Source: Alkalicoccus halolimnae (GTDB taxonomy: Bacteria; Bacillota; Bacilli; Bacillales; Salisediminibacteriaceae). Taken from it: DNA of 64,000 bases. Position 1 is the stretch's first letter, and the number at the start of each line of letters is the position of its first letter. The notes beneath the pieces were generated by a model that worked only from the letters and a program-made list of their open reading frames with translations, had not been told where the DNA came from and searched no databases. A program made the translations under genes and the position numbers. Where the stretch lies: the NCBI RefSeq assembly GCF_008014775.2, contig NZ_CP144914.1:620001-684000 (forward strand), given 5' to 3'. This document shows positions 30,411-33,008 of this stretch, piece after piece.

Positions 30411-31256
30411 TTATAGATCTACGCCGAGCTTTGAAAAGTTTCGTCGTTTCATTTCTTTGAAAAGCACCGCGTAGGCGGTTAAAGCTACAAGGCTGGTGAG
30501 TACATAAACGAGATATTGAATAATCATCTGCAGAACACTGCTTCCCAAAGTCGTCTGTAGTACAGCCGCTGCTGTCCGGTCCACTAATGACATTGTAACG
30601 AAAAAGACAACTAAATAGGCGGTTATCCACCAGCCGAAACCGCGTGTGAATTTCCAGCTGCGGCTTATCCCGGCAAAATTTCCATCGATAACGGAAAAAC
30701 CGAAAAACAAGCAGATCCTCGCTGAAATATAAAGAGTGAGGATGACCGCTGCAGCAATACCGATGATTTCTATTATAAGTATTCCGGAAAGCGAAAAAAG
30801 TAAAATAGCGACAACGATGCCAATTCCAATAATGGTCATATAAAATATGTAGGCAATCCAGCTGCTGATCATTCGAAAATAACTGGCAAGGGCATGTCGA
30901 AGAGCCTGTTTTTCTGAAACTGGTTCATTTTCCCGCCAGATCAAATAGTATAATCCGGCTCCCCAGAGCAGCGGATAGCTGAGTAACAAAAGCAGGTCCA
31001 ATCCTATAAAAGGAGTTTGGACGGAAGAAAAAGCGTTTCCTTCCTGCTCGTTTAAAAATACTTGTGTCCATGTCTGCTCCGTCCCTTGACCCTGTATAAA
31101 CGGAAGACCAAAAACAGCCCCCAGAACGAGGTGCAGAACTAAAAGCGGCGCTGCAATCCAGCAGGCCACTTTCAGCAGGGAGGAGAAGCGTGTATTCAGT
31201 AAAGATAAGGTTTCTTTAACAAGCTCTGAAAATGTGCTCTCGGTGTCTCGACTCAT
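30411..31256 (-). CDS. Polytopic membrane protein of unknown function
   Basis: 281 aa with six predicted membrane segments and a soluble N-terminus. A conserved-looking ISRSWKFTRGFGWW motif near residue 200 resembles the DUF975/glycerophosphodiester-phosphodiesterase membrane-domain type of proteins, but I cannot name the family with confidence. GGAGGG lies 6 nt before the ATG. It begins 41 nt after the PapR-like ORF on the same strand with no terminator between, so it is probably co-transcribed and under the same peptide-sensing control. Its 3' end lies 24 nt from the repeat at 30278-30386. Confidence 0.6.
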   Translation of the reverse strand: MSRDTESTFSELVKETLSLLNTRFSSLLKVACWIAAPLLVLHLVLGAVFGLPFIQGQGTEQTWTQVFLNEQEGNAFSSVQTPFIGLDLLLLLSYPLLWGAGLYYLIWRENEPVSEKQALRHALASYFRMISSWIAYIFYMTIIGIGIVVAILLFSLSGILIIEIIGIAAAVILTLYISARICLFFGFSVIDGNFAGISRSWKFTRGFGWWITAYLVVFFVTMSLVDRTAAAVLQTTLGSSVLQMIIQYLVYVLTSLVALTAYAVLFKEMKRRNFSKLGVDL

Positions 31257-31297
31257 GCTTTACCCTCCCTCTAACATGTCTGCACTATCGAGCTTCC

Positions 31298-31420
31298 TTA
31301 TCTTTCGTATGGAAGGTCCTGCTGCTGCACTTCGCCTGCTTCCTGGAAATCAGCGGCGGAAACAGTACCAAATCCGGCAAATGTAAATGCCATCGCAAAT
31401 AATATGAAAAGTGTTTTCAT
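31298..31420 (-). CDS. PapR-like quorum-sensing propeptide (40 aa)
   Basis: Short ORF behind a strong AAGGAGGG placed 8 nt before the ATG. The product has an N-terminal signal peptide (MKTLFILFAMAFTFAGFG, then TVSAA) and a short hydrophilic tail, DFQEAGEVQQQDLPYER. The C-terminus DLPYE matches the heart of B. cereus PapR peptides, which end in DLPFE plus an aromatic or His residue. It is divergent from a PlcR-type regulator, its expected receptor. By analogy it would be exported by Sec, trimmed outside, re-imported by an oligopeptide permease and bound by the TPR domain of the regulator. Here the last residue is Arg, unlike known PapR types. The gene is outside usual ORF size limits. Identity as a PapR homologue is inference from motif plus context. 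Confidence 0.72.
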   Translation of the reverse strand: MKTLFILFAMAFTFAGFGTVSAADFQEAGEVQQQDLPYER

Positions 31421-31441
31421 GTGAACAACCCTCCTTAATGT

Positions 31442-31461
31442 AGTATAATTGTCCTAATACT
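31442..31461. promoter_or_regulatory. Dyad between papR-like and plcR-like genes; plcR-like promoter
   Basis: AGTATAA-ttgtcc-TAATACT is a near-perfect inverted repeat. Its outer TAT/ATA triplets are 10 nt apart, the same geometry as the B. cereus PlcR box (TATG-N8-CATA), although the inner G/C differ. It overlaps TATAAT (31444-31449), the likely -10 of the plus-strand gene (GTGAAC at 31421, 17-nt spacer). It is the only dyad in the 58-nt divergent spacer and a natural operator for the regulator. Confidence 0.5.
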
Positions 31462-31478
31462 GGAAAACAGGTGATCGA

Positions 31479-32372
31479 ATGAATAAAAACAAGCTTGGAC
31501 AATCTATCGAAATGCTCAGGAAAAAGAAAAACATGTCACAAGGGCAGCTCGCTGAAGGGATCTGCACCCAGCCGGCTGTTTCCCAGATTGAGAAAGGAAA
31601 AGTTTACCCTAAAGTAGATACTCTTTATTATTTCGCTTCCAAGCTGGACACTTCCTTATCGCACTTTGTTGAAGTCCTCCTCGAAGAACCGGAAGAAAAA
31701 CAAAATGAAGTGATCCAAAAACTCAATCGTTTAAGCACCGAGCAGAAACACGAAGAAATACTTGCCTGCATAAAAGGGCTCTCCAGCCCACTGCCTCCAT
31801 GGATGAAACTGTTTACGGGCTGGCTGCAATATTTAAGCGAACATTATTTAGGTTTTCGTTCACTAAAGGAAACGATTTACATATTCAAATCGCTCCTCCA
31901 GGAAGAGGATCCTATTCTTATCCGAAGAAATCATCTGCATATAAGCATTATGAATTCCATCGCCTTTCTGTATGCAGCGGACGGGCACTATCTGGAAAGC
32001 CTCTACTATTATGATAAAATTCTCTCGCCGGAAGAAGCTCTTCCTGTTTCTTCAGAAGTGATCGACATCGATATTTACCGCATCCGCGTCATGTACAATA
32101 AGGCAAAAACGCTTTACGATATGGGGGAAACGACAGCTTCCCTGGAAACGATTGAAGCTGGGATAGAAGCTTCCCTGCACAAAGAAAGTATGGCTCTTCT
32201 CGGTCAGTTTTACTACTATAAAGGCCAGTGTTATGAAAAGCTTGATGAAGAAAAAGAAATCATCTGTGAATGCTACCAGCGTGCGCTGTCTCTATTTGAA
32301 ATTCTAAATAAAAAACTGTACAGCAGACTTTTATGGGAGCATAAATCCTCCTTTTTAAATCAGCTGGACTAA
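31479..32372 (+). CDS. PlcR-family transcription regulator (HTH + TPR, RRNPP)
   Basis: 297 aa. The N-terminal Xre-type HTH (about residues 5-60) contains MLRKKKNMSQGQLAEGICTQ and AVSQIEKGKVYP; the same layout is known in PlcR. The remainder is a helical TPR array (about residues 75-290). The segment SMALLGQFYYYKGQCYEKL near residue 235 closely resembles the corresponding PlcR segment, as does VMYNKAKTLYDMGE. PlcR proteins bind a re-imported peptide in the TPR groove and activate genes for secreted factors. A PapR-like gene is divergent 58 nt away. AGGTGATC lies just before the ATG. This is PlcR/NprR-type, not Rap, because the HTH is present. Confidence 0.85.
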   Translation: MNKNKLGQSIEMLRKKKNMSQGQLAEGICTQPAVSQIEKGKVYPKVDTLYYFASKLDTSLSHFVEVLLEEPEEKQNEVIQKLNRLSTEQKHEEILACIKGLSSPLPPWMKLFTGWLQYLSEHYLGFRSLKETIYIFKSLLQEEDPILIRRNHLHISIMNSIAFLYAADGHYLESLYYYDKILSPEEALPVSSEVIDIDIYRIRVMYNKAKTLYDMGETTASLETIEAGIEASLHKESMALLGQFYYYKGQCYEKLDEEKEIICECYQRALSLFEILNKKLYSRLLWEHKSSFLNQLD

Positions 32373-32526
32373 TTCTTTTGACTTCGGACCGGCAGAAGAC
32401 TGCCTGTAATTAAACGGTATGATTGGAATTTTCTTAATATTTGATTTTCATCCTACCTTTCGAAAAATAGAAATGCAACCTTCTTACACGAAAAAAATAT
32501 AAGCATGCTTATGTTACCGACAAAAA

Positions 32527-32559
32527 ACGAGCAGGGAGCCCGTGCGGCTCCCTGCTCGT
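32527..32559 (-). terminator. Terminator hairpin, left copy
   Basis: Perfect 14-bp stem ACGAGCAGGGAGCC/GGCTCCCTGCTCGT with a CGTGC loop, preceded by an A run (a T run on the minus strand) but with no T run on the plus side. A second copy is at 32971-33003. Confidence 0.75.
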
Positions 32560-32970
32560 CAGAGTGTTGATTAAGTAAAGAAAGAAGTTTATTTATTCTA
32601 TTCCTTGCATTTTCTCCTGCGCTTACCGGCGGAAGCCTGCCGTGGGGCTTGTCTTCAGCTATTTCCAATGCCTGGCTGCATTGGAAAGGATCTTCAGACT
32701 GCGCTTTAATCCCACTGGCGTCCCCGCCGGACACTGCAGAGAAAATCACTTTTTTTATAGGAAAAACCTGTATGAAGTACGCTTGTTTTCGCAGCAAAGT
32801 CTTTCTTTTTGTTCAGATGCTGGAGCTGTAGAAGGTGACTCCGGAAGAATGATTCTTTGTTTTATGAAAAGGAGGTCAGCTGAGAGAGTGCCCTCCGGAA
32901 ATCGACTCTTCGAAAGTGGAAACAGCCAACTATATACATATACAGGAAGAATTACTTTGTAAACAGCCTA
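32560..32970 (+). repeat. Non-coding element inserted between two copies of a terminator hairpin
   Basis: About 410 bp. It contains a stem-loop core of the CCGGCGG type (CCGGCGGAAGCCTGCCG at 32627, CTTCAGCTA, AAAGGATCTTCAGACTGCGC, then GGCGTCCCCGCCGG) plus, near 32840-32905, a second degenerate inverted core (GGTGACTCCGGAAGAATG, then GCCCTCCGGAAATCG). Bounded by 33-nt hairpins. No gene supported. Confidence 0.65.
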
Positions 32971-33008
32971 ACGAGCAGGGAGCCCGTCCGGCCCCCTGCT
33001 CGTTTTTA
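32971..33008 (+). terminator. Terminator hairpin, right copy
   Basis: ACGAGCAGGGAGCC/GGCCCCCTGCTCGT (one mismatch against the left copy) followed by TTTTT. Together with the left copy it would make one bidirectional terminator for the convergent plcR-like and SDR genes if the element were removed. Confidence 0.75.

Follow-up and report, generated by a model that had tools for sequence, protein, structure and literature searches.

Is the divergent gene pair at positions 31,298 to 32,372 of this stretch of Alkalicoccus halolimnae DNA a peptide quorum-sensing module of the kind formed by PlcR and PapR in Bacillus cereus, and what is to be made of its gene order? A first-pass annotation, made from the sequence alone, had proposed such a module for a small open reading frame (ORF) and a divergent regulator gene. 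The stretch, referred to here as the window, is 64,000 nucleotides long and sits in a 3.69-Mb single-contig genome (G000:C1:620001-684000). Judged by protein, the closest named relatives are Alkalicoccus saliphilus, A. urumqiensis, A. luteus, and Alkalicoccus sp., members of a salt- and alkali-tolerant genus. Comparative evidence supports the proposal. With a probability of roughly 0.87, the locus encodes a peptide quorum-sensing pair of the RNPP (PlcR) type, its two genes lying head to head, and the pair is very probably a cell-to-cell signalling system.

A PlcR-Type Regulator and Its Divergent Peptide Gene

The pair comprises the following features:

31298..31420, minus strand: papR-like pro-peptide gene, 40 amino acids (aa), with a hydrophobic leader and the tail DFQEAGEVQQQDLPYER, recognized from ORF and sequence
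31429..31436, minus strand: Shine-Dalgarno sequence AAGGAGGG of the pro-peptide gene, 8 nt before its ATG
31479..32372, plus strand: PlcR-type regulator, 297 aa, with a helix-turn-helix (HTH) domain at residues 10-62 and an RNPP_C tetratricopeptide repeat (TPR) domain at residues 81-293

Both regulator domains score well above their cut-offs: RNPP_C at E=3e-50 (171 bits, cut-off 26.5) and HTH_3 at E=5.7e-10 (39.5 bits, cut-off 23). PlcR (2qfc/3u3w/4fsc) is the sole distinct PDB sequence that matches the regulator at E <= 0.01 (E=3.4e-32), and it is also the best match of the structure model among the Foldseek matches listed. Identity to B. cereus PlcR is about 31%, with the segment SMALLGQFYYYKGQC aligning with SMALIGQLYYQRGEC of PlcR. 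Domains and model alike describe the HTH plus TPR (RNPP_C) cytoplasmic receptor of 250-500 aa by which RNPP/RRNPP systems are recognized. Together with the tree presented below, these matches confirm the annotated PlcR-family HTH/TPR regulator.

The annotated 40-codon ORF with its Shine-Dalgarno site, signal-like leader, and DLPYER tail likewise held up. The complete product, MKTLFILFAMAFTFAGFGTVSAADFQEAGEVQQQDLPYER, ends in QQDLPYER, and the start codons of the two genes face away from each other across 58 bp. A scan for hydrophobicity and Shine-Dalgarno matches identifies the product as the adjoining small pro-peptide with an export signal that is expected beside an RNPP/RRNPP receptor. Its C-terminal heptapeptide, QDLPYER, follows the PlcR-PapR pattern x-D-L-P-[FY]-E-x, and the mature pheromone is predicted to be the C-terminal 5-8 residues, about QDLPYER. 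When the 40-aa protein was searched against a set of 5.8 billion, using a method that needs shared 5-residue words and returned one candidate, no other protein matched, which only suggests that such genes are seldom annotated. The window genome has six other matches to the pattern D-L-P-[YF]-E-x-stop, with no comparable peptide gene at those inspected. One (L098) lacks an in-frame ORF of at least 28 aa and is antisense to a long ORF; a second (L100) ends a 69-aa ORF (DFPFET) that by eye has no hydrophobic leader. The remaining four are copies of one sequence, and the copy inspected (L083) lacks an in-frame ORF of at least 25 aa.

Short ORFs are common, and a chance ORF with a coincidental DLPYER end has to be considered. 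A scan of 299 kb, made up of the window and 22 stretches chosen mostly for such regulators or nearby proteases, yielded 219 small ORFs with a Shine-Dalgarno match and a hydrophobic N-terminus. Thirteen of these carry D[LFM]P[YFHW]E within their last 14 residues, and all 13 lie upstream of an RNPP regulator on the opposite strand, one being a second copy in L048 about 1.5 kb further out. In addition, the 39-codon peptide gene of three sister species has changed less at non-synonymous sites (dN 0.06-0.08) than at synonymous ones (dS 0.23-0.47), although the changed codons behind these values are few (5-6 non-synonymous, 4-7 synonymous), and the last eight residues, QHDLPYEW, are invariant. Coincidence is already contradicted by these results and is scarcely credible.

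The two peptide genes of L048, at 1871(-) and 3385(-), end in DLPYEG and DFPYEG and lie upstream of one regulator; by eye, an apparent transposase fragment lies between them.

Conservation of the Pair

The family search covered 35 genomes, 31 of which gave some match at E <= 0.001, and the best locus of each of the 13 top-ranking genomes (36-100% identity) was inspected. In 11 of these there is a divergent small ORF with a ribosome site, a hydrophobic leader, and a DLPYE-like tail. These tails are DLPYER, DLPYEW (three species), DLPYES, DLPYED (twice over, in two species), DLPYEA, DFPYEG, DLPYEP, and DLPHEF. Divergent peptides also occur at two further family loci, L051 (DSPYEA) and L052 (DLPYEK).

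Gene surroundings were compared by eye. Those of L003 and L004 are as in the window, with an arginine deiminase to one side and, to the other, an SDR together with an MBL/rhodanese protein, except that a subtilase occupies the spot of the window's membrane protein. In L005 the contig stops on the peptide side, leaving the regulator side alone comparable. The sister species keep the ORF, with the tail DLPYEW, next to the regulator and these flanks; the loss of the ORF from such a setting, which the first-pass annotation had singled out as the outcome that would speak against a module, was not encountered.

At the level of the order, 178 of 397 genomes gave a match at 1e-20, and the best 30 loci of these were taken. 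Of these loci, 21 were new, and a divergent DLPYE-like peptide is present in 11 of the 21, with the tails DLPHEV, DLPYEV, DLPYET, DLPYEN, DLPFEH, DLPYEY, TFPFEH, and DLPHEFSVKLDK, the last with a core that is not terminal. One more, L072, has a convergent DLPYE-like peptide, DLPFEDVLSQNFK. The others comprise five loci with a divergent exported peptide lacking the core, two with a convergent peptide ending in DIPFHH, and two with none.

At the position after the glutamate, 13 different residues are found among 23 loci (R, W, S, D, A, G, P, F, V, T, N, H, Y), and in 21 loci this position ends the peptide. The arginine of the window is one of the 13. It fits the distinct specificity suggested by the first-pass annotation, yet by comparison of sequences it appears as one variant among many at a freely variable position.

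The same genome holds a second, distant RNPP regulator (G000:C1:1178780-1179517; L002; L053:5769-6671), also with a divergent exported peptide, of 36 aa (L053:5461-5571(-)), which ends in GLPYRHG. The corresponding peptides of G004 and G006 end in DLPYRHR and DLPFRHR, with a subtilase coming after each.

Gene Order and Ancestry

The regulator tree comprises 43 rows and was rooted at the midpoint; the base of the PlcR clade is unresolved. L017, L021, L023, L027, L028, and L029 were left out as near-duplicates or long branches; L018, L022, L030, L031, L051, and L052 are also outside it, as are L054-L059 and L067, which are duplicates. B. cereus PlcR falls inside a 32-row clade (support 100/100) that includes the window regulator, as opposed to 11 more distant rows. 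Its sister is L072 (100/99), in which the peptide gene comes after the regulator but on the opposite strand, and is preceded by a perfect PlcR box, TATGAAATATTGCATA.

Of the 31 other members of the PlcR clade, 22 have a DLPYE-like peptide gene head to head with the regulator, and one more (L072) has it in convergent order. Outside the clade, nine of the 11 rows have a recognized peptide, seven head to head and two convergent. L026 is the only tree row outside the receptor clade to carry the DLPYE-like core. Head-to-head is thus the commonest order in this sample, and B. cereus is the one that differs. Given the counts on both sides of the clade boundary, head-to-head order is likely ancestral and the tandem order of B. 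cereus derived. The departure from B. cereus to which the annotation drew attention is therefore real, although not peculiar to this organism.

In its introduction, the paper of Felipe-Ruiz et al. places the pheromone gene upstream or downstream in general, and its discussion states that Bacillales systems, including PlcR, encode the pheromone immediately downstream of the receptor (PMC9765709). The present loci do not fit the latter statement. A PlcR clade of Bacillaceae is also mentioned in a structural phylogeny of 2025, which gives orientations in a figure (PMC12700828), and some of these pairs may be in its tables or in those of RRNPP_detector (PMC10075063). No report of the present pair was found in the literature searched, supplements, figures, and most subscription papers being beyond that search.

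The Peptide Groove of the Receptor

In B. cereus, the glutamate of PapR is contacted by Lys89, Gln237, and Tyr275 of PlcR (PMC6568020). Gln243 and Tyr281 of the window regulator are the counterparts of Gln237 and Tyr275. Across the 23 clade members with a DLPYE-like peptide, position 237 is Q/N in 22 (Leu in L077) and position 275 is Tyr in 22 (His in L065). Three further residues, Asn159, Asn207, and Lys210 (N159, N201, and K204 of PlcR), are invariant across all 23; for PlcRa, docking placed the peptide backbone against an asparagine and a lysine of TPR3 (PMC3519770).

L074-L076, with the altered core PGIGWRY, retain these three residues and have Pro at 237 and His at 275. L079, also without a DLPYE core, has Ser275. 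In the distant rows position 237 is acidic in 11 of 11, as against Q/N in 22 of 23 DLPYE-like rows; L026, with an HLPYEH peptide and Glu237, is an exception. Since the contrast is confounded by ancestry, it establishes no link between peptide end and groove residue.

The Shared Promoter Region

Three further features lie between the genes:

31421..31478: shared intergenic region, 58 bp, with TAGTATAATTnTCCTAA conserved in three sister species and no PlcR box
31422..31449, plus strand: sigma-A-like promoter of the regulator, TGAACA-16-TATAAT (10/12), overlapping the pro-peptide gene start region; a consensus match only
31442..31447, minus strand: possible -10 element (TATACT) of the pro-peptide gene, overlapping the regulator -10; inferred from sequence

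The conserved core TAGTATAATTnTCCTAA, shared by the intergenic regions of the window and its close sisters, contains -10-like elements of both genes that overlap each other. Such sigma-A-like sites number seven in 2.4 kb, compared with 3.8 +/- 2.0 in shuffles, and the promoter consensus scan found no -35 good enough for listing in front of the pro-peptide gene. Neither in this region nor in those of the sisters was another clear operator found.

Some Rgg-type regulators act by repression that the peptide relieves. The same pair could in principle work in this way, with the apo-regulator sitting on overlapping divergent promoters and holding papR off until the peptide binds. Overlap of the likely -10 elements of both genes within 58 bp, overlap of the regulator promoter match with the start of the peptide gene, and a divergent order that suits mutual control all speak for repression. 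On the other hand, PlcR, the closest characterized relative, is an activator (PMC2464732), and the fact that no good -35 was found for the peptide promoter is consistent with a need for one. Repression is accordingly the less probable mode, though the most plausible of the alternatives considered here.

At other loci, PlcR boxes do occur between the genes, perfect in L070 and L073 and at 9/10 positions in L077 and L014. Scores of at least 9 were found in 4 of 35 intergenic regions (0.5 expected) and scores of 10 in 2 of 35 (0.02 expected); neither count was reached in any of 400 shuffles. A variant site, TATAAGTAGATTAATA / TATAAATAGATTTATA, or one base off it, lies upstream of the regulator in L060, L062, L066, L012, and L013. 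Between the genes of the window and its close sisters, both this variant and the PlcR box are absent.

Neighbouring Genes and Possible Output

The gene behind the pro-peptide gene is a candidate for co-transcription:

30411..31256, minus strand: membrane protein of 281 aa (hydrophobic by eye), 41 bp after the pro-peptide stop on the same strand

This protein has no Pfam or NCBIfam match at E <= 1. Homologues occur in 10 of the 35 family genomes, its own included, the closest being 46% identical (G007).

In 11 of 23 loci, papR is adjoined on its own strand by a gene for a secreted-type subtilase (PF00082). Ten were identified by Pfam (L039, L040, L042-L044, L047, L050, L146, L148, L149), and the eleventh is a contig-edge fragment in L041, 94% identical to the neighbour over 197 residues. 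In L009, where there is no peptide gene, the regulator is faced directly by the subtilase. The place next to papR is taken by proteins whose N-terminus looks export-like by eye, and which match no family or only a DUF, in L048, L049, L150 (DUF6060), L151, L152, L153, L154 (DUF2712), and L155, while VKOR does so in L156. Convergent L072 has no same-strand gene before the regulator, and on the far side of the PlcR box papR is faced by an apparently exported protein of 407 aa. In the B. cereus group, maturation of PapR is aided by NprB, a protease under PlcR control (PMC4147580, PMC4701985); by analogy, a subtilase encoded next to papR might be a target, a processor, or both.

The window genome retains a subtilase elsewhere (C1:2341314-2342447), 71% identical to that of G004. 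The absence of an adjacent subtilase from the present locus, and from the second RNPP locus, where G004 and G006 have one, raises the question of whether the pair is a relic that has lost its subtilase and is drifting toward an orphan or eavesdropping state, perhaps like L009 and L010, which have no such peptide gene nearby. Decay of this kind is improbable, more so than repression: the ORFs and groove residues are intact, the ribosome site is strong, and the genome has kept the subtilase.

At L147 (2043-7036), a PlcR-type regulator and its divergent DLPHEFSVKLDK pro-peptide head a cluster in which a Yip1-domain protein is followed by a C39 ABC exporter and a class IIb bacteriocin match. This setting would fit a different role for the small ORF of the window, as a secreted bacteriocin-like or immunity peptide and not a regulator ligand. 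Its tail core, however, matches that of the published PapR ligand ADLPFEF (PMC6568020), and the restriction of this core to the receptor clade among tree rows, L026 excepted, further makes such a role very improbable.

One feature behind the regulator may also bear on its targets:

32496..32515: near-palindrome AATATAAGCATGCTTATGTT, located some 127 nt past the regulator stop and conserved with three sister species; either an operator or a terminator

It is AT-rich and resembles the variant site. An operator reading draws on the placement of exact TATAAGNNNNCTTATA and on similar sites upstream of the regulator in related loci. The exact form occurs once per genome in G004, G005, and G006, behind the regulator (L039, L040, L041), and once in G000, upstream of the subtilase at C1:2341314 (L125 near 6585); the window copy is one base off. 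Against this reading, G002 and G007 have one site each, G001 and G003 have none, and a control pattern is found 0-2 times per genome. In 330 nt aligned, no clear conservation was seen past the palindrome, which could instead be a two-way terminator.

Further on, a 34-nt hairpin sequence (AACGAGCAGGGAGCC...) occurs at 32526-32559 and 32970-33003, the copies being 94% identical and 444 bp apart. The ORF between them is similar to one adjacent to the displaced subtilase (L106:1084-1383), which makes a dispersed repeat element likely.

Weighing the Evidence and a Proposed Mechanism

Several observations weigh against a PlcR-PapR-type pair. Two of the 13 best family loci (L009 and L010), along with L060 and L069, have no recognized DLPYE-like peptide gene nearby. 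These peptide-less clade members retain the same groove residues, which alone are thus no proof of a DLPYE-like ligand. The counterpart of PlcR Lys89 is perhaps Lys90, in an ambiguous alignment that is off by one (EQKH here). No PlcR-box-like site (TATGNAN4TNCATA) lies within window positions 31200-32700, the best match between the genes reaching 6/10. The gene behind the peptide differs from that of the sister species (membrane protein versus secreted subtilase), and permease lipoproteins are generic, being found in 11 of 14 control genomes.

The receptors of L009, L010, L060, and L069 are possible eavesdroppers.

On the other side, sequence comparison supports the pair itself, its conservation, orientation, clade, peptide core, and groove residues. 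From these we infer an export route, processing, import, binding, activation and not repression, a DNA site, and targets. The 40-aa pro-peptide would leave the cell through the Sec route, be cut down outside to its C-terminal ~5-8 residues (around QDLPYER), and return through an oligopeptide permease. It would then bind the TPR groove of the regulator and alter transcription. The first target may be the shared 58-bp promoter region, giving positive feedback on the pro-peptide gene, with exported products also controlled. In the sisters, these would include the secreted subtilase encoded immediately after the pro-peptide; in the window strain, the candidates are the membrane protein at 30411-31256 and perhaps the C1:2341314 subtilase.

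PlcR is familiar as the master switch of virulence in a single group of pathogens. The occurrence of its peptide code and receptor groove as a common head-to-head pair among environmental Bacillales relatives, repeatedly beside secreted proteases, suggests an older role in population control of exported enzymes. A broader proposal, whose chances we regard as even, is that PlcR-PapR did not originate with the B. cereus group but branched off from a broad and largely unannotated family of Bacillales receptor/pheromone pairs in head-to-head order, with an ancestral link to a secreted subtilase that perhaps served as both output and pro-peptide processor. Under it, papR would have moved downstream in B. 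cereus and its sister lineage, and the residue after Glu would be an open address position, with 13 residues in use, many mutually deaf species-specific signals, and Arg as that of the window strain. Such loci also offer a natural series of peptide-receptor pairs in which to study the terminal residue as a specificity determinant.

Comparison with Known Systems

The Rgg-SHP pairs of streptococci share the fold class of the window regulator, and in some groups they too have a divergent regulator-peptide order. Candidate RRNPP pairs reported by RRNPP_detector have the same computational signature, and their orientations per cluster are tabulated in Fig. 3, according to its legend (PMC10075063).

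PlcRa-PapRa of B. cereus resembles the present pair in having the pro-peptide gene upstream of the regulator, in the P-Y-E core of PapRa (CSIPYEY), and in that no PlcR-type palindrome was found at PlcRa targets (PMC3519770). PlcRa is itself about 29% identical to PlcR, and its PapRa pro-peptide differs from the present one in being 93 aa long with an internal signal (PMC3519770).

With respect to PlcR-PapR, the kind of system is already known; what is new here is the gene order, the peptide end, the lack of a PlcR box among the sites found, and the neighbouring gene. The papR gene of the B. cereus group lies 70 bp downstream of plcR (PMC4147580), whereas in the window it precedes the regulator in divergent orientation. 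A PlcR box is missing from the region searched, regulator identity is ~31%, and the peptide has Tyr for Phe and Arg as its last residue. The two systems are nonetheless alike in regulator architecture, clade, and groove residues, in an exported small pro-peptide with a D-L-P-aromatic-E-X end, and in their association with secreted degradative enzymes, as neighbours here and as targets in B. cereus.
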